From: a virus
DNA: 32,559 nt
IMG/VR virus record: IMGVR_UViG_3300037166_000095
Location: 1-32,559 of that record
Reading direction: 5' to 3' (one strand)
The position numbers and the translations under genes were made by a program. The notes beneath the pieces were generated by a model that was not told where the DNA came from, did not search any database, and saw only the letters and a program-made list of their open reading frames with translations. This document shows positions 1 to 32,559 of the stretch, in pieces (within the stretch, counting starts at the first letter, position 1; each line of letters begins with the position of its first letter).

Positions 1-127
1 GTTCTTTTATGAGCTATTTTTCTTGATTTATCAATAATTTTTTCTATGTTATTATTTATTTTATCACGTTCATCCACTAATGCTTTTTCAATTTTCTTGG
101 ATTCTTTAATATTAGACTTAACCTGTT
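1..127. repeat. Terminal direct repeat, left copy
   Basis: These 127 bases recur exactly as the last 127 bases of the window (32433-32559). A repeat of exactly 127 bp at both ends is what a de Bruijn assembler with k=127 leaves on a circular or circularly permuted molecule. I therefore read it as an assembly overlap rather than a biological terminal repeat. A protein-coding frame runs without interruption through the junction, which supports joining the ends. Confidence 0.95.
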
Positions 128-1757
128 TAGTCTCGCCTTCTGTGATTCCCTTTTCTAATTTCTCTGGATAACCTTTAATATCGTCCTGAATCAAAGAAAT
201 TTCTTGTTGTTTTTCTTTATAAAATGGTGATTCACTGTAAATCTTGCCTTCTTCCTGTGTTTTCTTCCAGAAATTAAATACAGCCTGAGGATAAGTGCCC
301 TCTCCCCTTGCATCTCTTCCCCCTTGCTCAAGGATAAGCTGCTTGTTCTTCATAATGGGCAAAAAACCTGCCGATGTTTTGGTTCCTTCAACATCAGAAA
401 GCCTTCCAAGCTCAACAAGTTCCTTTTGAAATCTATCAAACGCTGGTTTTAAAGCGGCTGCACCTTCATTAACAAATGGGTTTTCATCTTTAGCATTCAT
501 GAAAAGTGATTGAGATACACGGTCTGCGAATTCGCCAGGGGTAAGTTGATCGCTATTCAATTCAGCAATGGCAGCTCTTGCCTTCTTTGCAACCCCCTTC
601 TCAATACCAAGCATCTTATAATAAGCATCTTGATATCCAATGTTGGCAGAGAATGTACTTCTGATAAGCTCGTTCTTCATGGTCTCAACAGATGCGCCGC
701 CGGTTTCACCCTCAAGGTTACCTTTGGTTATCCAGTTATGTTGAATGACATTATTTAAGAACTTGTTCGCTGTTTTATATCTTGAAGCTGCGAGTCTTCC
801 ACCTGGTGTGGTTTCTAATAGCGTACGCCTAACTAATTCTGGGATATCTGCCAATGATTCATCTCGTCTTTTAGTGGCTGCTGCACTTAAAGAAGCGCGT
901 TCGCGCATTGGCTGGTCAGGATCAATCAATGTATCCATTATCTGATTGTATGCAATCTTCTCAGCCTTCGGGTCAATCTGATAAGCCTTTCCAAGCCTAT
1001 TAGCCCCAACCCCTAAAGCGCCGCCCAGTATGCTGCTTGCCGTCACATTCCAAACACTTTCTTGAAACTCTCTTGTGAGCTGGGTATTATGTAGCATCAC
1101 CTCTTGAGCTGATACCGCTGTCGCCGTAGCTAATGCAGGTGATACAAATGCTTTCCCTACCTGCGATAAAGTTTTAGCCTGCTTAAAAATAGCGCCGCCT
1201 GGCATATAATTTGTAAACTCTAAAGGAGATGTATATATTCCAGTCCATAACGCTTGCCAAGGATGCTCCTCAAGTATGGCTTGATTCTTTCTTTCTCTGT
1301 TTAAACGCTCTTCGGTGTCTTTTATTTGTTCAATATTTGTATCAAGAACATAATATTCCAGGTCTGGTAATTGGTCAGGTCTTAAATACTCGGCAGGGTT
1401 AAACTTGTTTAAGTCAACTTCTGCCACATCCCTTGAGCTTCCACGGTTAATCAAAGAGCCAATAGTGTTTTCTCTTTGCATGTATGCCATAAAAACAGAA
1501 CCATCATTGTCAGTTTCAGGCAATCTGTCATCAGCTGGAACAAAGCTATTGAATTTTGGTACAGTTAATATATCAGCATTAAAAGGTGTAAATTCTGGCG
1601 TTACTTCTACAGGCTCAACAAAATCTTTCTCGATGTATGTTTCATCTAATGGTTGAGAATCTGGAATTATTTCAGGCTGTGGCAATGACTCCACTTCATT
1701 GATTTGTTCTACCTCTGTAGGATTCAAAGAATCAAGCACATTGGAATCGTTCATCAT
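1..1757 (-). CDS. Large internal virion protein (T7 gp16-like position), N-terminal part; continues at 32432
   Basis: The open frame runs from 1757 leftward off the window edge. It joins in frame to 32432-30134, giving 1351 residues in the circular genome, close to the size of T7 gp16. The start is ATG-ATG at 1757, about 10 nt after a GGAG, and overlaps the stop of the upstream gene (TGA at 1754-1756). The N-terminal 60 residues are acidic and proline-rich. Alanine/glycine-rich hydrophobic stretches lie near residues 200-215 and 238-250. From about residue 515 the protein becomes a Lys/Glu-rich coiled coil. I see no lytic transglycosylase motif, unlike T7 gp16. Position last among the internal virion genes and before the tail fibre supports an ejection-protein role; this is inferred from synteny and size. 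Confidence 0.8.
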   Translation of the reverse strand, partial: MMNDSNVLDSLNPTEVEQINEVESLPQPEIIPDSQPLDETYIEKDFVEPVEVTPEFTPFNADILTVPKFNSFVPADDRLPETDNDGSVFMAYMQRENTIGSLINRGSSRDVAEVDLNKFNPAEYLRPDQLPDLEYYVLDTNIEQIKDTEERLNRERKNQAILEEHPWQALWTGIYTSPLEFTNYMPGGAIFKQAKTLSQVGKAFVSPALATATAVSAQEVMLHNTQLTREFQESVWNVTASSILGGALGVGANRLGKAYQIDPKAEKIAYNQIMDTLIDPDQPMRERASLSAAATKRRDESLADIPELVRRTLLETTPGGRLAASRYKTANKFLNNVIQHNWITKGNLEGETGGASVETMKNELIRSTFSANIGYQDAYYKMLGIEKGVAKKARAAIAELNSDQLTPGEFADRVSQSLFMNAKDENPFVNEGAAALKPAFDRFQKELVELGRLSDVEGTKTSAGFLPIMKNKQLILEQGGRDARGEGTYPQAVFNFWKKTQEEGKIYSESPFYKEKQQEISLIQDDIKGYPEKLEKGITEGETKQVKSNIKESKKIEKALVDERDKINNNIEKIIDKSRKIAHKR

Positions 1758-4725: not shown

Positions 4726-7167
4726 TTACATCTCCACGTTATAACCAATTGAGCGGATAGTCATCGGCCCGGGTATTGATTGGCTAATTACTATTTCTTG
4801 CCTTGGCTGCCAATCGCCAGACATCGGATTAATACGGAAAAACCCTTCTTGCGGCTGACCGTGACTATCTAATGTGTATTGCCCATAGTTAATCATAGGC
4901 ACATTCATTTCAGCCGCTGATATATAAAGACTATCAACATAGTCTATCTCAATCTGTTGGATATTTCTTTCAGCAAAAATATTATCACCCTCTTGCGTTG
5001 GTACAAGAATCGGCATAGGTACCAAATAGGGGCGGTACTGAAAGCCTAAATAAAAGGTTTGGCCCTCTAACACTTCATCGACTACTGTATCACCCGATGC
5101 ATCGACAAAGTAAGGGCCATAGGTTGTGCCTTCCCAGATAGCGTATACTTGCTCACCAGCAAGATTTGTGGCACCGGTAACTACACCTGAACTATCGGCG
5201 GATGTGGTTATTTGACTATCCATGTAGGTGTCAAAATCTTGCTGTTCTAAATAAATCCTTGTTCCAAGGTTCATTTGTAAAGCGCTCAACGTAGGTGGCG
5301 TCACCAATGTGGTGTTATTCGTTTGAATACGAATCCAGTATCTTTGGTAGATGTTATTTTGGCTATCAAAGATATCAGATGGTGCCCAATCAAGGGTATC
5401 AGTGAAGCCCCATGTGATGGTTCCATTGCCTGTAAAGCCACCTGTTGTATCAGTTGCGGTAAAGTTATTCCAGTTACCGTTTCCGTCAAGGTATTCATAG
5501 GTTAAATCCACATCAGCGGAAGCATTAACGCTTAGGGTGATATTGAGTCCTGTGTAAGGCATGTTATGGCCAATGAGTAGGTAACCGCCGACCACCAAAA
5601 ATATTTGTTGAGGTAAGATAGCTTGGATTGCTTGGAACCCATCCATGTTTGCATCAGTGTTATAAACAAAATCTGGCGTATCATTATAGGTTGAGCCAGT
5701 GTTAACTTGTCGTTGCACGATAGTTTGGCATAGGCTCTTAAGTCCCATAACCTGTCTAAAATATCCACGCGTGTTTCTAAGGCTCCATGCATTGACGACC
5801 TCATCCTCAAGAGTGGAGAGCATAAGCATTGTGCCATCTTCTTGGGTGGCAAAGAGGAATTTACCGGCTATGTTCCCAGGCAACCACGCACCCATCGAGT
5901 TTATAACTTGAATCAAGTGCGTGGATAGCAGTGCGCCTGGGAGACTGTTTATCTTCGCTTTGTAGGTATCATAATACACTTTGACAATATTTTGTCTATC
6001 AGGCGAAGTATGAAAAATCTGGTTATCTATGTTCACGCTTGGTATGTATGAGCTGCCATCGCCGCCTTGAGGGGGTGCGTAGAAGTCGTTAACGTTGATG
6101 ATGTTTTCGGTTAGTGCATTGGTGGCGTACATCCTTGTAGCGCCGAAGATAATGAACGCATCATCACCGGCGAAGTCTTCGACGGCATCATTTCCTTTGT
6201 AGCCTAGGGCGTATGTGAAGCCTGCTGTGGCGTCATTATCTGAGTCATCGAAGTTATCGTAAACGCCGATGACTGAGAAGGCCATGACATTATTGATGAC
6301 GAGTGAGCGACCCATGACAAGGCGGTTAGTGTAGTAGAGGGCGCGAGCTGGCCAGCCTCTGTTTGCACCTGCGGGAGAGCCGCCGCCAGATGTCCACATT
6401 CTTTCATTGAGTGAAGAGACGGTGCCAAGGATGGCTGCTGTGCTAGTGAAGTCTTCTTGGGTTGTGACTGTCGCCACGGTAGTACTTGACACGGCATTGA
6501 TACGCGCGATCCCACCGCCCCCCACAAACAAACCCCCAACGTGATTGGCGGTATATATAGCGCTTGATGCGGTTAATGTTACTGAGCCGGTGGTTCCGCT
6601 TGGCGTGAAGGTGAATCCTGCAACACGATATTGTGTTCCGCCTAATACTGTGTAGTCGAATACTGGGTAGGTCGAGAAGTTGAAAACAGAAAATGTCCAT
6701 GAACCGGCGCTCCCATTGTTGACCAATTGATGGGTTTGAATGTTTTCGTTGAGGAACAGCACTCTATCTTGACCAACGCAGAAGTCAATGTGAGGGATAT
6801 CAGCAACTGAATAAACAGAAGCTGGTACAGAAGCCACGAGAGCGCCTGCAAAATAGATGTCCAGCGCAACCGTGCTAGTTGTGTCAGGGCGCATGATAAT
6901 AGTATATTCAATCCCATCTTCAGCATTGTATTCAAATATGACACCACTTACTTTCGTGTAGTCTGTAATCGGAACCGGTGGCATGGCTGTTCTATCCATA
7001 ACCACGTCTATATATTGCGACCCAGGAGCAAGGCGGGCGGCACCTGTCCAAAGGGAAACAAGGTTACGCATTTTGCGCGCACCTTTGGCGTAAACGTCGA
7101 CATCATAACGCGCTAGTAGTGTTGGGTCTAGTTCGCCCTTTGTGAAGCAGTTTTGGGTTATCCTCAT
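4726..7167 (-). CDS. Tail tubular protein B (T7 gp12-like), 813 aa
   Basis: The protein forms the nozzle of a podovirus tail. The N-terminus carries the pattern typical of the family: a GELDPTLLARYDVDVY stretch at residues 12-27, then a conserved Asn, then G-A-A-R-L-A-P-G near residue 45. The length of 813 residues fits gp12 relatives (about 800). The rest is beta-rich with many Gly, Thr and Asn. Its ATG overlaps the stop of tail tubular protein A by one base (TAATG), so the two are probably translationally coupled, as expected for proteins that assemble together. Confidence 0.88.
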   Translation of the reverse strand: MRITQNCFTKGELDPTLLARYDVDVYAKGARKMRNLVSLWTGAARLAPGSQYIDVVMDRTAMPPVPITDYTKVSGVIFEYNAEDGIEYTIIMRPDTTSTVALDIYFAGALVASVPASVYSVADIPHIDFCVGQDRVLFLNENIQTHQLVNNGSAGSWTFSVFNFSTYPVFDYTVLGGTQYRVAGFTFTPSGTTGSVTLTASSAIYTANHVGGLFVGGGGIARINAVSSTTVATVTTQEDFTSTAAILGTVSSLNERMWTSGGGSPAGANRGWPARALYYTNRLVMGRSLVINNVMAFSVIGVYDNFDDSDNDATAGFTYALGYKGNDAVEDFAGDDAFIIFGATRMYATNALTENIINVNDFYAPPQGGDGSSYIPSVNIDNQIFHTSPDRQNIVKVYYDTYKAKINSLPGALLSTHLIQVINSMGAWLPGNIAGKFLFATQEDGTMLMLSTLEDEVVNAWSLRNTRGYFRQVMGLKSLCQTIVQRQVNTGSTYNDTPDFVYNTDANMDGFQAIQAILPQQIFLVVGGYLLIGHNMPYTGLNITLSVNASADVDLTYEYLDGNGNWNNFTATDTTGGFTGNGTITWGFTDTLDWAPSDIFDSQNNIYQRYWIRIQTNNTTLVTPPTLSALQMNLGTRIYLEQQDFDTYMDSQITTSADSSGVVTGATNLAGEQVYAIWEGTTYGPYFVDASGDTVVDEVLEGQTFYLGFQYRPYLVPMPILVPTQEGDNIFAERNIQQIEIDYVDSLYISAAEMNVPMINYGQYTLDSHGQPQEGFFRINPMSGDWQPRQEIVISQSIPGPMTIRSIGYNVEM

Positions 7168-17653: not shown

Positions 17654-17983
17654 TTAGTTTACTGATGAGCTTCTTAATAATGCTTTTTTCTTTTCTAAAT
17701 AATCAGAAGTATCTTTTACATGCATTCTTAGAGAATGCACAAAAGAATCGACTACCTTATCCAATGTTTCGGTAGAGTTGTTTTCAACAATTGCTTGAAC
17801 AAAAATTGTATGGGCTGCTGACATAAGAATACAAGGTGCCGAGCTGTTTTCTTCGTCTTTCCATCCTTTCTGCCCTATCTCGCCTCTGCCAACTGCATTG
17901 AGAAATTCTAATTGTATATCGTGGTACGTTTTAACAAGCTGAGCGACATAAGGCTCAAGAATTTCATTATCAGATCTTTTCAT
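17654..17983 (-). CDS. Hypothetical protein in recombination operon, 109 aa
   Basis: A soluble, helix-rich protein with no recognised motif (MKRSDNEILEPYVAQLVKTY start). It sits between the exonuclease and the Sak4-like ATPase, sharing a four-base ATGA overlap with the exonuclease stop, so it is made with them. It may be an accessory to recombination; nothing in the sequence proves this. Confidence 0.7.
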   Translation of the reverse strand: MKRSDNEILEPYVAQLVKTYHDIQLEFLNAVGRGEIGQKGWKDEENSSAPCILMSAAHTIFVQAIVENNSTETLDKVVDSFVHSLRMHVKDTSDYLEKKKALLRSSSVN

Positions 17984-18642
17984 TTAAATATCTTCTCCAT
18001 CTCTTTAAAATCTTTCTTACTCATCACCACGCCCTCTCTCTCATCAAGATAATCAATCAGGTCTTTGTTATATACAGGCCCTGGCGGGATATCTAATTGG
18101 ACACATGAATAGAATTCTTTCTCTTTTTGGATTAGCATTTCTTCCAAAACAAGATCGCGCTCCAATATGTAGTGACGAAAGTCAACTCCACGAATGAGCA
18201 CAGCCACATAGCATCTATCAGCGTTGCAGACGGCCATATAGTGAACAACTTGTAACAGGTAATTCCTTGGAATAATGTTAGAACCAACGTCGCCCCAACC
18301 TTCAGGAGAAGAAGTAGTTTTAATTTCAACAATTGAGTTTTCCTTATAAACCTTTCCGTCTATATTACCAGCCATCCATGCTAATTTAGGATGGATAATA
18401 ATATCACCGCGCTCCAAAATATCTTTATTTATTTCCTGACCTAACCAATCCCGAATAGCTCCCTCAAGCATAATACCCGCCTTAACCGCTGGCTTATGAC
18501 TAATATCTTCGACGACTGCTCGGCGAGTCTTCTGCTCCCAAAGCTCATAAGGTGTCGTGTAAGGAGACAGGCCACAGATGATACTTGCATCACTTCCAGT
18601 TACGTAGCTTAATCTCTGTTCCTTTTGATCATCTGTTAGCAT
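17980..18642 (-). CDS. YqaJ-type recombination exonuclease, 220 aa
   Basis: The product belongs to the lambda-exonuclease/YqaJ family that resects double-stranded ends for recombination. Visible motifs are G-S-D-A-S-I-I-C-G-L-S-P-Y near residue 16, then E60 in G-I-M-L-E-G-A-I-R-D-W, D95 in G-N-I-D-G, the E106-I-K108 catalytic pair, and a Q-V-V-H-Y-M motif near 132. Start: the ATG at 18642, 6 nt after AAGGA; an upstream TTG is less likely. Size fits the family (about 200-230). With Sak4-like ATPase and SSB it forms a complete resection-annealing set. Confidence 0.88.
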   Translation of the reverse strand: MLTDDQKEQRLSYVTGSDASIICGLSPYTTPYELWEQKTRRAVVEDISHKPAVKAGIMLEGAIRDWLGQEINKDILERGDIIIHPKLAWMAGNIDGKVYKENSIVEIKTTSSPEGWGDVGSNIIPRNYLLQVVHYMAVCNADRCYVAVLIRGVDFRHYILERDLVLEEMLIQKEKEFYSCVQLDIPPGPVYNKDLIDYLDEREGVVMSKKDFKEMEKIFK

Positions 18643-18651
18643 ATTCAATCC

Positions 18652-18975: not shown

Positions 18976-19159
18976 CTTTAACCTCAACTACAGGATTCTC
19001 TAACTTCGTCAATCTCTCACTCACAATCTCTAACATAGCCTTTAACACAGAAAGCTCTTCATTCAACATGAATACCTTCTTATCAACTACCTGGCATACC
19101 TGTGAAACCTGTCTCTCAAGTAATCCAAACTCTTTATGAAGCATTCTATTATCTATCAT
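18965..19159 (-). CDS. Coiled-coil protein, 64 aa
   Basis: Heptad-like hydrophobic spacing (L-L-x-x-Q-V-S-Q-V, then V-x-x-L-N-E-E-L-S-V-L-K-A-M-L) runs from residue 12 to 55, so a parallel coiled coil is likely. AAGGTG precedes the ATG at 19159, which overlaps the end of the ribbon-helix-helix gene. Function unknown; it may dimerise with its neighbours. Confidence 0.6.
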   Translation of the reverse strand: MIDNRMLHKEFGLLERQVSQVCQVVDKKVFMLNEELSVLKAMLEIVSERLTKLENPVVEVKDEQ

Positions 19160-19319
19160 CTTTCTTCACCTTAATGCGCTCAAGGAAATCAACAATAACC
19201 CCCCTCATGCATTCTGACATCGTAAGCTCATTCTTTGTGCAATACTTAACAAGCTTTGCCTTATCTCTTGGGTCAAGGTAAAAGTTAATGTACTCCTTAC
19301 CCCTAAATTCAGTAGCCAT
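19149..19319 (-). CDS. Ribbon-helix-helix DNA-binding protein, 56 aa
   Basis: This small gene opens the recombination operon. AGGAG lies 8 nt before the ATG at 19319. The sequence has the Arc/MetJ/CopG layout: a short strand (E-Y-I-N-F-Y-L), a first helix (D-P-R-D-K-A-K-L-V-K-Y-C-T-K), a turn, and a second helix (T-M-S-E-C-M-R-G-V-I-V-D-F-L-E-R-I). Such proteins bind tandem or palindromic operators as dimers. A perfect 16-bp palindrome lies about 40 bp upstream over the predicted promoter, which fits autoregulation. Fold call is from pattern; regulation is inferred. Confidence 0.72.
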   Translation of the reverse strand: MATEFRGKEYINFYLDPRDKAKLVKYCTKNELTMSECMRGVIVDFLERIKVKKDDR

Positions 19320-19344
19320 ATGTAATTCTCCTTCAATGAAAAGG

Positions 19345-19372
19345 ATAGTAACATATTACTTACGTAAGTAAA
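19345..19372 (-). promoter_or_regulatory. Predicted promoter of the recombination operon
   Basis: On the minus strand TTTACT (19367-19372) is followed by a 16-nt spacer and TACTAT (19345-19350), which carries an extended -10 (TGT before it). Each hexamer matches consensus at four of six positions. Transcription would begin about 20 nt before the ATG of the ribbon-helix-helix gene, leaving room for its AGGAG. The -35 and spacer are covered by the palindrome at 19356-19371. Confidence 0.5.
19356..19371. promoter_or_regulatory. 16-bp perfect palindrome, likely operator
   Basis: TTACTTACGTAAGTAA is perfectly self-complementary and is built of tandem TTAC/GTAA quartets; a further GTAA lies just beside it at 19348-19351. 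Tandem quartets inside a palindrome are the usual target shape of ribbon-helix-helix dimers. It overlaps the predicted leftward promoter, between that operon and the rightward island, so it could control one or both. Confidence 0.65.
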
Positions 19373-19442
19373 AGGTGTTTTTACATGAGAACGGGGTAAA
19401 AGAGGAGAGCAAAGGAAGATTTGTTAGCTATACTTCAAAAGA

Positions 19443-19468
19443 AAAGGCCAGTATTTCTACTAGCCTTT
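19443..19468 (-). terminator. Hairpin terminator candidate facing leftward
   Basis: On the minus strand the stem is AAAGGC-T-AGTA, GAAA tetraloop, TACT-G-GCCTTT, with one mismatch, followed by TCTTTT. It would stop leftward transcripts arriving from the early block before they reach the operator region. Stem and loop are clear; termination strength is inferred. Confidence 0.5.
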
Positions 19469-19477
19469 GAAATTAAC

Positions 19478-19507
19478 CTACTTCACAACAGCAAGGTAAT
19501 GAAGTAG
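19478..19507. repeat. Inverted repeat with 14-nt loop
   Basis: CTACTTCA (19478-19485) and TGAAGTAG (19500-19507) are perfect complements. The hairpin stands just upstream of the small plus-strand frames and beside a TCGG-AA-CCGA mini-palindrome. Role unknown; part of the structured island. Confidence 0.5.
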
Positions 19508-19552
19508 AATCGGAACCGACTAAAGTATTTCAATTCACAAGGAATCGCCGAT

Positions 19553-19594
19553 ATGCCTACAACCCTTTTTCTTACAAAGGAATCTTCGACATGA
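19553..19594 (+). CDS. Possible 13-residue leader peptide
   Basis: A tiny plus-strand frame (MPTTLFLTKESST) begins with ATG about 10 nt after AAGGA. Its stop overlaps the ATG of the next frame (ATGA). The initiation region matches that of the next frame (ACAAGGAATC..CGATATG versus ACAAAGGAATC..CGACATG). It might be a leader or coupling peptide. At this length chance is hard to exclude. Confidence 0.3.
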   Translation: MPTTLFLTKESST

Positions 19595-19692
19595 GAACTT
19601 TAACAACAACATCCCAAGCTGTCAAGCTAAACCTTCACATTGCTGTCAAATATTTGACGCCCTTCTATCAGGGGGGCACAGCCACGACATAA
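19591..19692 (+). CDS. Possible 33-residue small protein
   Basis: The frame (MRTLTTTSQAVKLNLHIAVK start) begins inside the stop of the 13-codon frame and has AAAGGA upstream, in a repeated initiation context. It contains the GTCAAATATTTGAC palindrome in its coding sequence. No family is recognised. The SD and the ATGA coupling are the only support. Confidence 0.35.
   Translation: MRTLTTTSQAVKLNLHIAVKYLTPFYQGGTATT
19645..19658. promoter_or_regulatory. 14-bp perfect palindrome
   Basis: GTCAAATATTTGAC is perfectly self-complementary and AT-rich in the centre. It is a plausible protein-binding site in the island, for example for a regulator or an initiator. An AAACCTTC octamer flanks it at 19629-19636 and recurs at 19699-19706, with its complement at 19745-19752. 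Confidence 0.45.
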
Positions 19693-19707
19693 AGGCGCAA
19701 ACCTTCC

Positions 19708-19815
19708 ATGAGTTTAACGGGAACATATACAACGTTGTGGCAGCGAAGGTTTATCGAATCACACAAGACTATACAAGATAACTGGGAGCGAATTGACGGT
19801 CAGCGTATCACCTGA
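19708..19815 (+). CDS. Possible 35-residue small protein
   Basis: The plus-strand frame (MSLTGTYTTLWQRRFIESHK start) follows the 33-residue frame after 15 bases. Its upstream AAAGG is about 12 nt from the ATG, a weak spacing. The product has a plausible basic, amphipathic composition but no recognised domain. It is listed because no other gene covers this stretch. Confidence 0.25.
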   Translation: MSLTGTYTTLWQRRFIESHKTIQDNWERIDGQRIT

Positions 19816-19873
19816 GAGATTGGGGAAAGCCGTCATAATGTTGAAGGGGCGTGCCTGGTGGCATAACACTTCT

Positions 19874-19932
19874 GATGCATAGCTCGGGCGATTCAGATGA
19901 TAATATCTGTTTCCTGGCCCGAGCTATGCATC
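19874..19932. ncRNA. Long perfect hairpin, possible structured RNA or origin element
   Basis: GATGCATAGCTCGGGC (19874-19889) pairs perfectly with GCCCGAGCTATGCATC (19917-19932): 16 base pairs without a mismatch. The 27-nt loop holds a second small stem, CAGAT (19894-19898) with ATCTG (19905-19909). It is the strongest secondary structure seen in the window. No T-run follows on either strand, so it is not a simple terminator. It could be a small RNA, an mRNA control element, or a cruciform at an origin; the sequence alone does not decide. Confidence 0.55.
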
Positions 19933-19956
19933 TGCTAACGAACCAAGCAGCATATG

Positions 19957-20020
19957 GCGGGAGCAGGAAGCGAAAGGAAGGAAGGAAAAGGAAGGGAAGC
20001 AAGAGGAAAGAGATAGAGAG
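19957..20020 (+). repeat. Polypurine tract with GGAAG repeats
   Basis: About 64 plus-strand bases contain only around five pyrimidines and include tandem GGAAG/GGAAA units. Such tracts can form triplex DNA or strong RNA-DNA hybrids and are found near some origins. Here it lies between the long hairpin and the first rightward gene. No coding role is convincing. Confidence 0.6.
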
Positions 20021-20047
20021 TAAGTAGCAGTAAAGATGAGGTGAAGT

Positions 20048-20371
20048 ATGATTTTAAGTACAGATAAGCAAGAGATTAAAGGAAGCAAGGAAGCAAAGGA
20101 TTTGTATGGATTATTATTTTGGTTAATTGTAAAGAGACAATCATTTATTGTTGAATTCAACCGAAGGGCTTTAGTTACATTGATTAGAAAGAGCAATAGA
20201 GAATTTAGAGAGAGCCAAATGATACCGGCGGAATTAGAGTTAATGAGGTTGGGGGTATTGCTTGGAATGGATAAAAGAGATGATAAAAGGCATGGAGACA
20301 ATCAAACGGTATATATTATGAGAGATCCGAGAAAAAAGAAAACAAATACCGATTTACCGTGGGATAATTGA
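20048..20371 (+). CDS. Rightward hypothetical protein, 107 aa
   Basis: One of few plus-strand genes. GAGGTG lies about 4 nt before the ATG. The product is charged and basic (net Lys/Arg-rich), with a hydrophobic helix near residues 20-28 (G-L-L-F-W-L-I-V) and a basic C-terminus (R-D-P-R-K-K-K). No domain is recognised. The DNA is AT- and purine-rich relative to the virion genes. It may bind nucleic acid or regulate, but this is only suggested by charge and position next to the structured island. Confidence 0.65.
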   Translation: MILSTDKQEIKGSKEAKDLYGLLFWLIVKRQSFIVEFNRRALVTLIRKSNREFRESQMIPAELELMRLGVLLGMDKRDDKRHGDNQTVYIMRDPRKKKTNTDLPWDN

Positions 20372-20412
20372 AACAAAAACATGATAAAGTCCACACATCA
20401 AAAGGGATCTAA

Positions 20413-20805
20413 ATGTCAAAAGGACTTCTTATGTCAGCGCTCATCGTCTTGGTCTTCCTCGCTCTTTGCTATCTCCTCATCTACCGGTTCGCTCCAACAC
20501 CCAAAGAACCTACAAATCCCATTCCTCTAGCCCTAAAAAAAGAGATAAACGAACACTATGGCAAAGAGACGGTAACAGATGTCACGATGGAGAGCGTAGG
20601 ATATGGTTTTGAGGGCTTAGGCAACGATGAGGGTACTACGCCCGCCCCTACCTACCTAATCACCGCTAAGACGATTATAGACGGTCAGGAAGGGTGTGTT
20701 TATGCGTTGGCTGAGGACTTAACACCGATAGGGATGCATTTGGTAGCCAATGACCTGATACAAAAGATAAGGATGATGAAACACGGCTTGCGAATAATAT
20801 GCTGA
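20413..20805 (+). CDS. Rightward membrane-anchored protein, 130 aa
   Basis: AAGGGA precedes the ATG by about 6 nt. Residues 5-26 form a strong transmembrane segment (L-L-M-S-A-L-I-V-L-V-F-L-A-L-C-Y-L-L-I-Y), followed by a proline-rich linker and a soluble domain of about 90 residues that probably lies in the periplasm. No family is recognised. It is followed by an intrinsic terminator, so it ends the rightward unit. Roles such as superinfection exclusion or lysis control are possible but unproven. Confidence 0.65.
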   Translation: MSKGLLMSALIVLVFLALCYLLIYRFAPTPKEPTNPIPLALKKEINEHYGKETVTDVTMESVGYGFEGLGNDEGTTPAPTYLITAKTIIDGQEGCVYALAEDLTPIGMHLVANDLIQKIRMMKHGLRIIC

Positions 20806-30133: not shown

Positions 30134-32559
30134 TTAGTATCCTTCCCTGTTCTCAATAAGATTAAAAGTGTTTCCCGTTTCAGTCACAAGTTGATCTGAC
30201 AACCAATTCATGTAAAAGATATTCTGAAAAGGTAAAAGCCTAGTCAATGACTTAATATCCTTTGTCGTTATGTCGGCATTACCCCGCGCTGACTGACCAA
30301 ACTTATTAGCCAATAAAACCAAATCAGCGGCAGATCCATAAGTTGGCCCAAGTGCTGCACCCAATGCTCCTCTGGTTTGGTATCTGCTTACGCCTGTGCC
30401 ACCAGTCAACACATCCCCTATGTCAATAACTTCCATGAGAACCCCTAGCACACCGCTCCTATCAAGCGATTCTTTAGCTAAGTTCTTAAGCTCTAAATCA
30501 GGCTCTTTCCCCTTTGAATATGATGATAGCACATAGCCCAATGCTCCTAAGCCTAACATTGATACCACGCCGGTGTATGTTTCAACATCCTTTCTTCTTT
30601 GTATGCCAGAAACAAGAGTTTTATTGGTTGCGGAAAACATGAATGATTTAAACTGCAACAAAAGTTTACCTGGGACTGTATGGCCTACAAGTGGAATGTC
30701 GGCTGCTCCTGGATAATTTAGGGTCACTTCTATGTCTTTAGCGATGGCGTGTTGGTATGCTCTCAAAGCATCGGCTTGAAAAGAATCTCTAACATCCCAG
30801 TTAGTCCAGTCAGCGACCCGAGTGCCGTTACTGCTTATGTTTGATTCTTTGCTTGTTTGGCTGGCAATATAATCAAAGTACATTTCATCAATACCGAGTT
30901 GCGCAAGTCGCGTACGAGCGCGCTTGGTTACTTTTCCACCATTAACGATTTTATGGATGGTTGACAGCGTGTCATTGATGGCAAGATTTCCGGCGGCTCT
31001 TTCTGTTAAGGATGTCCATTGATTAAATAATGTCAGGTCGCCATACGCTTGAGATAAGGCGCTAAAGGATTTAGTCATAAAGCCTGGGTTTGTGGATAGG
31101 GTTTCCTGATCTACAAACATGCCAACCCTAAGCCCAAGTTCGGATTCTATTGAATAGTTGATAGCTTTGATATCGCGGCTTGATATTTTACGAAAACTTG
31201 GGTCAGAAAGCATCGGTACAAGTCCGTGATAGATAGTATTGAATACCCCATTTTGCATACCGATACGGCCAACGTCTGTGATTGATGAAATCGTTATACC
31301 GCCTAGCATTCTGAGGGCATTGTAGGCTCTAAAGTTTTCAAAGAACTTTGACCATCCTGTTGAGTTTACATTAAAGCCATTTTCATAGATTCCTTTAACG
31401 ATATCGATTGAGGCTATAATGTCTCGCTCGATAGCTTTGAGTTTCTTATCTTCCCGTGCAATTTGTTTTCCGGTCATACCTTGTGTGCGCTGTACAAATT
31501 CAGTATGAAGTTCATTTGAAATAGATTTTCTCATGTCTTCAAAGCTTTCAAAACCAAGTTCTCTTGCTTTCTTTTCAAGGGCAATCAAGGGTGATAACCC
31601 TCTGGCATAAGAGTTTAAGAGTTTGACTGGGTCTTTTATATGCCATGGATGAAGCGCTTCTTGGTCAACAAGTAATGTGCGCTCTTTAAGTGAATTGGTT
31701 CTGTTAAAAGATTGGACAAAAGGATTTAGAAGTAGGTCTTCCTGATGACCTAGCACTTTATCGACATGTTGCTCGACGTGTGACCATAAAACATCATCGC
31801 TCAAATCGAAGGGGAATAGATTGCCTTCGTCATCGATAGTGTATTTTGGTGCATTTTTTGCAATTTCGCGTTTAATTTCTGATATTCTATCCTCAAGTTT
31901 ACCTACTTCATCCTTTGTTTTGTTTTTAACTTTGGATTTATCAAGTGATTTATGTTGTTTCTCTAAATCGAATATCTTGCCACGTATGTCTTTAATCTCT
32001 TTATCAAGAGGTTCAAGTCTTTCAATAGAAGATAAAATATCATTACGTAGTTTAATATCTTCAACGTCATAATATTTATTAATTAATTTGATCAATCTTT
32101 CAGGAGACTTATCAAGATTAAAAACAAAAGAACTATGCTCTTTTTCAGTTAATTTTAATTTATCATTTAAAGGCGGCAACTGATTTTTTAGATCTGCAAT
32201 CTTAAGCTTCGCAGCAGATTGAGCCATTTTTTCTTTTTGAAAATTAGCATTTATTTTAGCTGCTTCATTTGCAAATTTAACCTGCTCTTTTCCTGTAGAA
32301 TTCAATGACATTTTCTGCCATTTTTTTACTCTCCTGGCTTCCTTTTCATTTTCTAAGTTAGAATGAAAAAGATAATTTTTTAAACTTCTAATTTCACTTT
32401 CAACTTTATTAATTTCTTTTTGTAAATCAAGAGTTCTTTTATGAGCTATTTTTCTTGATTTATCAATAATTTTTTCTATGTTATTATTTATTTTATCACG
32501 TTCATCCACTAATGCTTTTTCAATTTTCTTGGATTCTTTAATATTAGACTTAACCTGTT
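30134..32559 (-). CDS. Large internal virion protein (T7 gp16-like position), C-terminal part; continues from 1-1757
   Basis: The frame is open from the right edge to its stop at 30134 and joins in frame to bases 1-1757; bases 32433-32559 are the duplicate of 1-127. In the joined protein residues about 515-780 are a long Lys/Glu/Asn-rich coiled coil coded by very AT-rich DNA. A globular part follows. A hydrophobic segment at about 1208-1223 (V-V-S-M-L-G-L-G-A-L-G-Y-V-L-S-S) precedes a C-terminus with L-L-P-F-Q-N-I-F-Y-M-N, a pattern seen at the end of large podovirus internal proteins. Its stop overlaps the ribosome site of the tail fibre. Likely an ejected protein; no enzyme motif seen. Confidence 0.8.
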   Translation of the reverse strand, partial: QVKSNIKESKKIEKALVDERDKINNNIEKIIDKSRKIAHKRTLDLQKEINKVESEIRSLKNYLFHSNLENEKEARRVKKWQKMSLNSTGKEQVKFANEAAKINANFQKEKMAQSAAKLKIADLKNQLPPLNDKLKLTEKEHSSFVFNLDKSPERLIKLINKYYDVEDIKLRNDILSSIERLEPLDKEIKDIRGKIFDLEKQHKSLDKSKVKNKTKDEVGKLEDRISEIKREIAKNAPKYTIDDEGNLFPFDLSDDVLWSHVEQHVDKVLGHQEDLLLNPFVQSFNRTNSLKERTLLVDQEALHPWHIKDPVKLLNSYARGLSPLIALEKKARELGFESFEDMRKSISNELHTEFVQRTQGMTGKQIAREDKKLKAIERDIIASIDIVKGIYENGFNVNSTGWSKFFENFRAYNALRMLGGITISSITDVGRIGMQNGVFNTIYHGLVPMLSDPSFRKISSRDIKAINYSIESELGLRVGMFVDQETLSTNPGFMTKSFSALSQAYGDLTLFNQWTSLTERAAGNLAINDTLSTIHKIVNGGKVTKRARTRLAQLGIDEMYFDYIASQTSKESNISSNGTRVADWTNWDVRDSFQADALRAYQHAIAKDIEVTLNYPGAADIPLVGHTVPGKLLLQFKSFMFSATNKTLVSGIQRRKDVETYTGVVSMLGLGALGYVLSSYSKGKEPDLELKNLAKESLDRSGVLGVLMEVIDIGDVLTGGTGVSRYQTRGALGAALGPTYGSAADLVLLANKFGQSARGNADITTKDIKSLTRLLPFQNIFYMNWLSDQLVTETGNTFNLIENREGY
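32433..32559. repeat. Terminal direct repeat, right copy
   Basis: Exact duplicate of bases 1-127 (see that entry). In a circular or trimmed genome it should be counted once, giving about 32,432 bp. Confidence 0.95.

Follow-up and report, generated by a model that had tools for sequence, protein, structure and literature searches.

In type I toxin-antitoxin systems such as hok/Sok and AapA/IsoA, an antisense RNA covers the ribosome-binding region of a tiny ORF that is carried on a structured RNA. Among phages, the lambda PR'/6S RNA is a short terminated transcript made from a strong promoter, and HK022 put is a structured leader that precedes an operon. In ColE1 replicons, a short, hairpin-rich and terminated antisense RNA (RNA I) opposes a longer structured RNA (RNA II), and no replication protein is needed. 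RNA-based origins have also been established for some extrachromosomal mycobacteriophages without repA, namely Alma, LadyBird and RedRock (Wetzel et al, 2020; PMC7157519). In these non-RepA phages, replication of the prophage needs a noncoding RNA region, and lytic growth is normal after deletion of this region (PMC7157519).

Here, we analyse a noncoding island in the genome of a short-tailed phage that can be compared with each of these systems. Like the non-RepA mycobacteriophages, in which a few hundred bases of transcribed noncoding sequence are implicated in replication (PMC7157519), this phage has no recognised initiator; unlike their RNA origins, which adjoin parABS and serve prophage maintenance, its predicted locus has no recognised parABS beside it. 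As in ColE1, we find an antisense RNA of about 100 nt with a promoter, stem-loops and an intrinsic terminator, all as sequence predictions. The locus differs from ColE1 in that the two predicted RNAs overlap by 32-74 nt rather than over all of RNA I, and in that it has no Rfam RNAI match. The layout of type I toxin-antitoxin loci may be shared as well, but the micro-ORF found here is weakly supported and encodes a peptide that is not hydrophobic and has no family match. In contrast to lambda PR'/6S or HK022 put, transcription of the terminated RNA runs away from the structured leader. We conclude that the island is a genuine RNA locus that is conserved and contains a well-supported small RNA together with a single firm hairpin, and we weigh the functions that it may serve.

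The phage genome and its relatives

The sequence analysed, referred to throughout as the window, is the whole of a virus record of 32,559 bases. It encodes a short-tailed phage with a T7-type head-tail connector, a Phage_capsid_2 capsid, terminase subunits, and internal virion and tail proteins. The nearest named relatives of its portal, at <30% identity, are Methylophilales phage MEP301, Vibrio podophages and pelagiphages. The ORFs cut off at either end of the window (3-1757 and 30134-32557, minus strand) match the first versus the last parts of the same internal virion families (phrog_342, phrog_16310). Because each of them matches a different half of a single internal virion protein family, the record probably lacks little of the genome; the matches suggest a nearly complete genome that is circularly permuted. 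A DNA similarity search of phage and plasmid collections returned no match, and a tRNA/tmRNA search found none.

Relatives were collected by IMG/VR scans with the portal, capsid, Sak4-like, exonuclease and terminase proteins. Only two relative contigs cover the island, L004 (IMGVR_UViG_3300021182_000169) and L006 (IMGVR_UViG_3300004092_000075), and the locus comparison comprises three sequences: the window, L004 and L006. The latter, a contig of 8,762 bases, and L144, one of 24,070 bases, may be two pieces of one relative, because both come from metagenome 3300004092 and together sum to 32.8 kb. Some fifteen relatives with Sak4-like proteins of at least 55% identity were found; except for L004 and L006, they share neither synteny nor the hairpin described below with the window. 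An exact scan of IMG/VR for the arms of this hairpin returned 37 stretches, all of which proved unrelated on inspection except those in L004 and L006. Scans of bacterial and archaeal genomes with the portal and terminase found none, and searches with a single neighbouring gene retrieved no close homologues, either for 20048-20371 or for the exonuclease alone.

A conserved noncoding island between divergent gene sets

The island occupies positions 19320-20047, a gap of 728 nt between a leftward gene (19149-19319) and a rightward gene (20048-20371). The initial annotation had described it as a largely gene-free stretch in a genome whose genes elsewhere overlap or touch. By the gene list of this analysis, it is indeed the largest gap in the window, but the contrast holds only roughly, because the next largest gaps measure 583, 526 and 467 nt, some of them with small ORFs. 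As also described there, the island divides leftward from rightward genes, and its own frames are small and without family match. The features at its borders are as follows:

19149-19319, minus strand: ribbon-helix-helix (RHH)-like repressor gene of 56 aa, the first gene of the leftward operon in the window phage
19356-19371, no strand assigned: perfect palindrome TTACTTACGTAAGTAA of 16 bp, overlapping the promoter-like site TTTACT-16-TACTAT of the RHH gene
19956-20040, plus strand: polypurine tract that precedes the first rightward gene
20048-20805, plus strand: two small genes of 107 and 130 aa with no assigned function, in place of which L004 and L006 have unrelated small genes

The position and anatomy of the island are conserved in the window, L004 and L006. 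Each of the three islands is bordered on its left by a leftward recombination operon that has an RHH-like gene close to its beginning, and on its right by a few small rightward genes, which are unrelated between the phages. The island is kept in two relatives, where the initial annotation had named a lack of such conservation as a ground for refuting its reading.

The 56-aa protein matches a PHROG transcriptional repressor (E 7e-4) and, weakly, the Pfam family RHH_9 (E 0.085); RHH-like genes also lie to the left of the island in L004 and L006. The palindrome TTACTTACGTAAGTAA probably serves the RHH gene as its operator. In L004 (about 5850-5880) and L006 (2880-2926), the corresponding position ahead of the RHH gene is taken by different inverted repeats. 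The presence of a different inverted repeat in each phage at the promoter of an RHH-like gene would be consistent with co-evolving autoregulation. L004 (5447-5803) and L006 (2536-2859) have an SSB gene that separates the RHH gene from the island; no such gene occupies this place in the window phage.

The sequence features first noted in the island were largely recovered, with qualifications. Inverted repeats with arms of ≥7 and loops of ≤40 are enriched, numbering three in the island where shuffles average 0.6 and 2 of 60 get to three, but not extreme: other 668-nt segments of the window also reach three. The octamer AAACCTTC is repeated at 19629 and 19699, with its complement at 19745, and is not conserved at the corresponding places in L004 or L006. 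The polypurine tract is present as the most purine-rich 80-nt stretch of the whole window (0.89, start 19956), with purine fractions of 0.57 in L004 and 0.54 in L006. We abandoned the candidate reading of a conserved R-loop site here, since the tract is not conserved. No Rfam family exceeded its gathering threshold for the island, and the three loci gave only sub-threshold matches. The initial observation is in this sense partly confirmed.

A leftward small-RNA gene

The firmest result of our analysis is a well-supported, predicted small-RNA gene that reads leftward within the island. Its parts are as follows:

19597-19625, minus strand: sigma-70 promoter TTGACA-17-TAAAGT with TG, driving the small RNA
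19436-19591, minus strand: predicted small-RNA gene of about 150 nt, with hairpins and a terminator
19443-19468, minus strand: intrinsic terminator of the small RNA, with counterparts at 4962-4989 in L004 and 2120-2150 in L006

The leftward promoters of the three phages all have a 17-nt spacing (TTGACA/TAAAGT in the window, TTGACG/TACTAT in L004 and TTGACA/TATATT in L006), and an intrinsic terminator follows about 100-150 nt after the promoter in each of them. When both strands were scanned for a promoter followed by a terminator within 60-170 nt, the window and L004 each yielded only this unit, and L006 yielded it and one other; its position is homologous in all three phages. Its promoter is the top-scoring promoter of the whole window, and likewise in L006. 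The predicted small RNAs fold better than their shuffles, with z values of -3.1 (window), -4.7 (L004) and -4.5 (L006). We discarded an earlier reading of the leftward promoter as the source of a leaderless peptide, since its CATG is the complement of the rightward start codon.

A rightward structured RNA

On the plus strand, the island carries one solid RNA element, hairpin C, and several features of more tentative standing:

19482-19510, plus strand: tentative candidate rightward promoter TTCACA-17-TAGAAT, with weaker counterparts in L004 and L006
19629-19706, plus strand: two octamers AAACCTTC (19629 and 19699), alternative pairing partners of GAAGGTTT at 19745-19752
19680-19927, plus strand: proposed RNA fold with several stems (D, E, A, B and C), in which only stem C is firm
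19874-19932, plus strand: hairpin C, with near-invariant outer arms AGCTCGGGC and GCCCGAGCT, a 3' bulge and a covarying inner stem

The folding energy of the plus strand at 19600-19935 is well below that of shuffles (z -5.3, 0 of 100), and in the window, L004 and L006 the plus strand folds better relative to its own shuffles than the minus strand does. Within this region, hairpin C stands out as a conserved rightward RNA element. Its arms form 16 bp in the window and include 9-nt core arms that are identical in the window, L004 and L006; its inner stem differs in sequence among the three phages and retains pairing. In an automatic alignment, all counted cells of hairpin C pair and four pairs are changed on both sides, a level of covariation that is reached by 19 of 500 shuffles and lost on sliding. 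A covariance model of the hairpin scores 75, 72 and 52 bits on the plus strand versus 28-31 bits on the opposite strand, and, in 0.53 Mb of sequence from related and distant phages, has no match outside the three phages at E <1.

Further stems, E, A and B, are proposed from a hand alignment. In this alignment of 19751-19927, which was made to fit, 126 of the 129 cells of 45 pairs are canonical and 28 pairs have changed on both sides, with 6 G-U against 1 A-C on the plus strand. Stem D, which lies 5' of the hand-aligned stems, was placed by inspection. When stem A was aligned automatically and without forcing, the covariation of the hand alignment was not recovered, and we therefore regard stems D, E, A and B as tentative; local folding supports the stems other than C unevenly. 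The rightward promoter is likewise tentative, as is an overlap between the two RNAs: the candidate promoters, weak in L004 and L006, would give an overlap of 32-74 nt at the 5' ends.

Replication genes and a possible origin function

The DNA genes to the left of the island encode a DUF669/ssDNA-binding protein, a Sak4-like AAA protein and a YqaJ/RecE exonuclease. The exonuclease (17980-18648) has 222 aa in the window and is similarly short in L003; those of L004 (6286-7191) and L006 (3518-4441) have about 300 aa and an additional C-terminal part. Among the window proteins scanned against Pfam and PHROGs, we found no polymerase, helicase, primase or initiator, in agreement with the earlier remark that the phage shows no replicase of its own. 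No scanned window protein matched ParA or ParB, and no parABS cassette was recognised beside the island.

More distant relatives of the phage do have initiators. G009 and G012, whose portals are about 45% identical to that of the window, encode replication-initiation/DnaD-like proteins, and about 290-340 nt of noncoding sequence lie upstream of each of these initiator genes. G014 shows weak similarity to the initiation protein of G012, and G016 and G006 each have one similar-sized protein without family match that might be an initiator equivalent by position. Neither these initiators nor their possible equivalents have a counterpart in the window, L004, L006 or G015. In G012, a tyrosine integrase (L155 13698-14849) lies beside the replication-initiation gene, and part of this portal group is therefore probably temperate.

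From these observations, we infer a candidate replication function for the island. Our tentative preference, at less than even odds, over an early leader or a toxin-antitoxin-like locus, is for an RNA-based, counter-transcribed replication control region or origin that resembles either ColE1 or the non-RepA mycobacteriophages. In such a system, the strong leftward promoter would give rise to a short, hairpin-rich antisense RNA that ends at the intrinsic terminator, and a longer rightward RNA would carry conserved secondary structure up to hairpin C, followed by the short set of variable genes. The rightward RNA would serve as a pre-primer or origin transcript for the host polymerase, at or just past hairpin C, and pairing of the antisense RNA with its 5' part would set the frequency of successful priming. 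We consider it unlikely that the clade swapped the initiator protein of its distant relatives for an RNA-only origin with an antisense copy-control RNA that recruits the host polymerase.

The initial annotation had proposed an origin of replication, a small RNA or a control region, and this interpretation is partly supported. The small-RNA gene and the structured RNA element speak for it, but the suggested GC-skew check yielded no origin signal, as the skew at fourfold sites keeps its sign across the island. The window contains one DnaA box versus four expected, with none in the island, and the RNAI family has no match at E up to 10 in the loci of the window, L004 and L006. Given that the phage encodes DUF669 and Sak4-like proteins as well as a RecE/YqaJ exonuclease, its replication may be recombination-dependent, and the scans could have missed a small unrecognised initiator.

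Alternative functions of the locus

The island may instead be an early control region, in which the rightward RNA forms the structured 5' leader of a fast-changing rightward early operon and has no role in replication. In all three phages, hairpin C lies about 50-120 nt upstream of the first rightward gene, with no rightward terminator after it, and the unrelated downstream genes fit a leader of interchangeable early genes. Such a leader might act by antitermination, RNase protection or translation control, and the small RNA would regulate the leader or act elsewhere; no antiterminator was recognised in the window phage. This explanation does not account for the absence of a detected initiator in the clade versus its presence in distant relatives, and it would rely on a rightward promoter that is weak in L004 and L006. 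We regard it as somewhat unlikely.

The start of the small RNA also coincides with a possible coding sequence on the opposite strand:

19591-19692, plus strand: tentative micro-ORF MRTLTTTSQAVKLNLHIAVKYLTPFYQGGTATT of 33 codons, with its ATG at the predicted small-RNA start and the Shine-Dalgarno sequence AAGGA upstream
19553-19594, plus strand: upstream frame of 13 codons, present in the window only, whose stop overlaps the micro-ORF start (ATGA)

The 13-codon frame arises from a tandem Shine-Dalgarno/ATG repeat at 19539-19594 (AAGGAATCGCCGATATG / AAGGAATCTTCGACATG). Counterparts of the micro-ORF start at the same place in L004 (32 codons) and L006 (25 codons). In all three phages an AGGA-type Shine-Dalgarno sequence lies 6-9 nt before the ATG, which is opposite the small-RNA start, and the peptides have a common A-V-(K/N)-L core and contain no D or E. 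The locus could accordingly resemble a type I toxin-antitoxin system, with the Shine-Dalgarno region of a 25-33 codon micro-ORF covered by the leftward antisense RNA. Against this, the in-frame similarity falls short of significance, being equalled in 514 of 5000 column shuffles, and the distances of the ATG and the core are confounded, being also set by the promoter on the opposite strand. Hydropathy is mixed across the three peptides, and the window peptide, at a GRAVY of 0.02, is not hydrophobic. This reading would also leave the conserved hairpin downstream unexplained, and we consider a toxin-antitoxin-like role quite improbable.

We similarly doubt that the island encodes stand-alone, trans-acting structured RNAs whose adjacency would be incidental. 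The 5' region of the small RNA contains UCCU, which may pair with ribosome-binding sites, and no family match was obtained; yet the fixed head-to-head layout in three phages suggests a linked function. That the island is leftover intergenic DNA with chance inverted repeats would agree with inverted-repeat counts only modestly above chance and with the poor conservation of many segments, but is highly improbable for a region whose promoter, terminator and hairpin are conserved at one position in three diverged phages.

Implications for phage replication

The RNA-based, counter-transcribed origin that we tentatively prefer bears on how small podoviruses without a polymerase or a recognisable initiator begin DNA replication. 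If true, it would extend RNA-primed origins to another phage group, in a defined segment of about 700 bp, and would suggest an exchange between protein-based and RNA-based initiation. Should the island prove to be an early leader under antisense control, or a micro-toxin locus, it would still represent a new structured phage RNA without a counterpart in Rfam.
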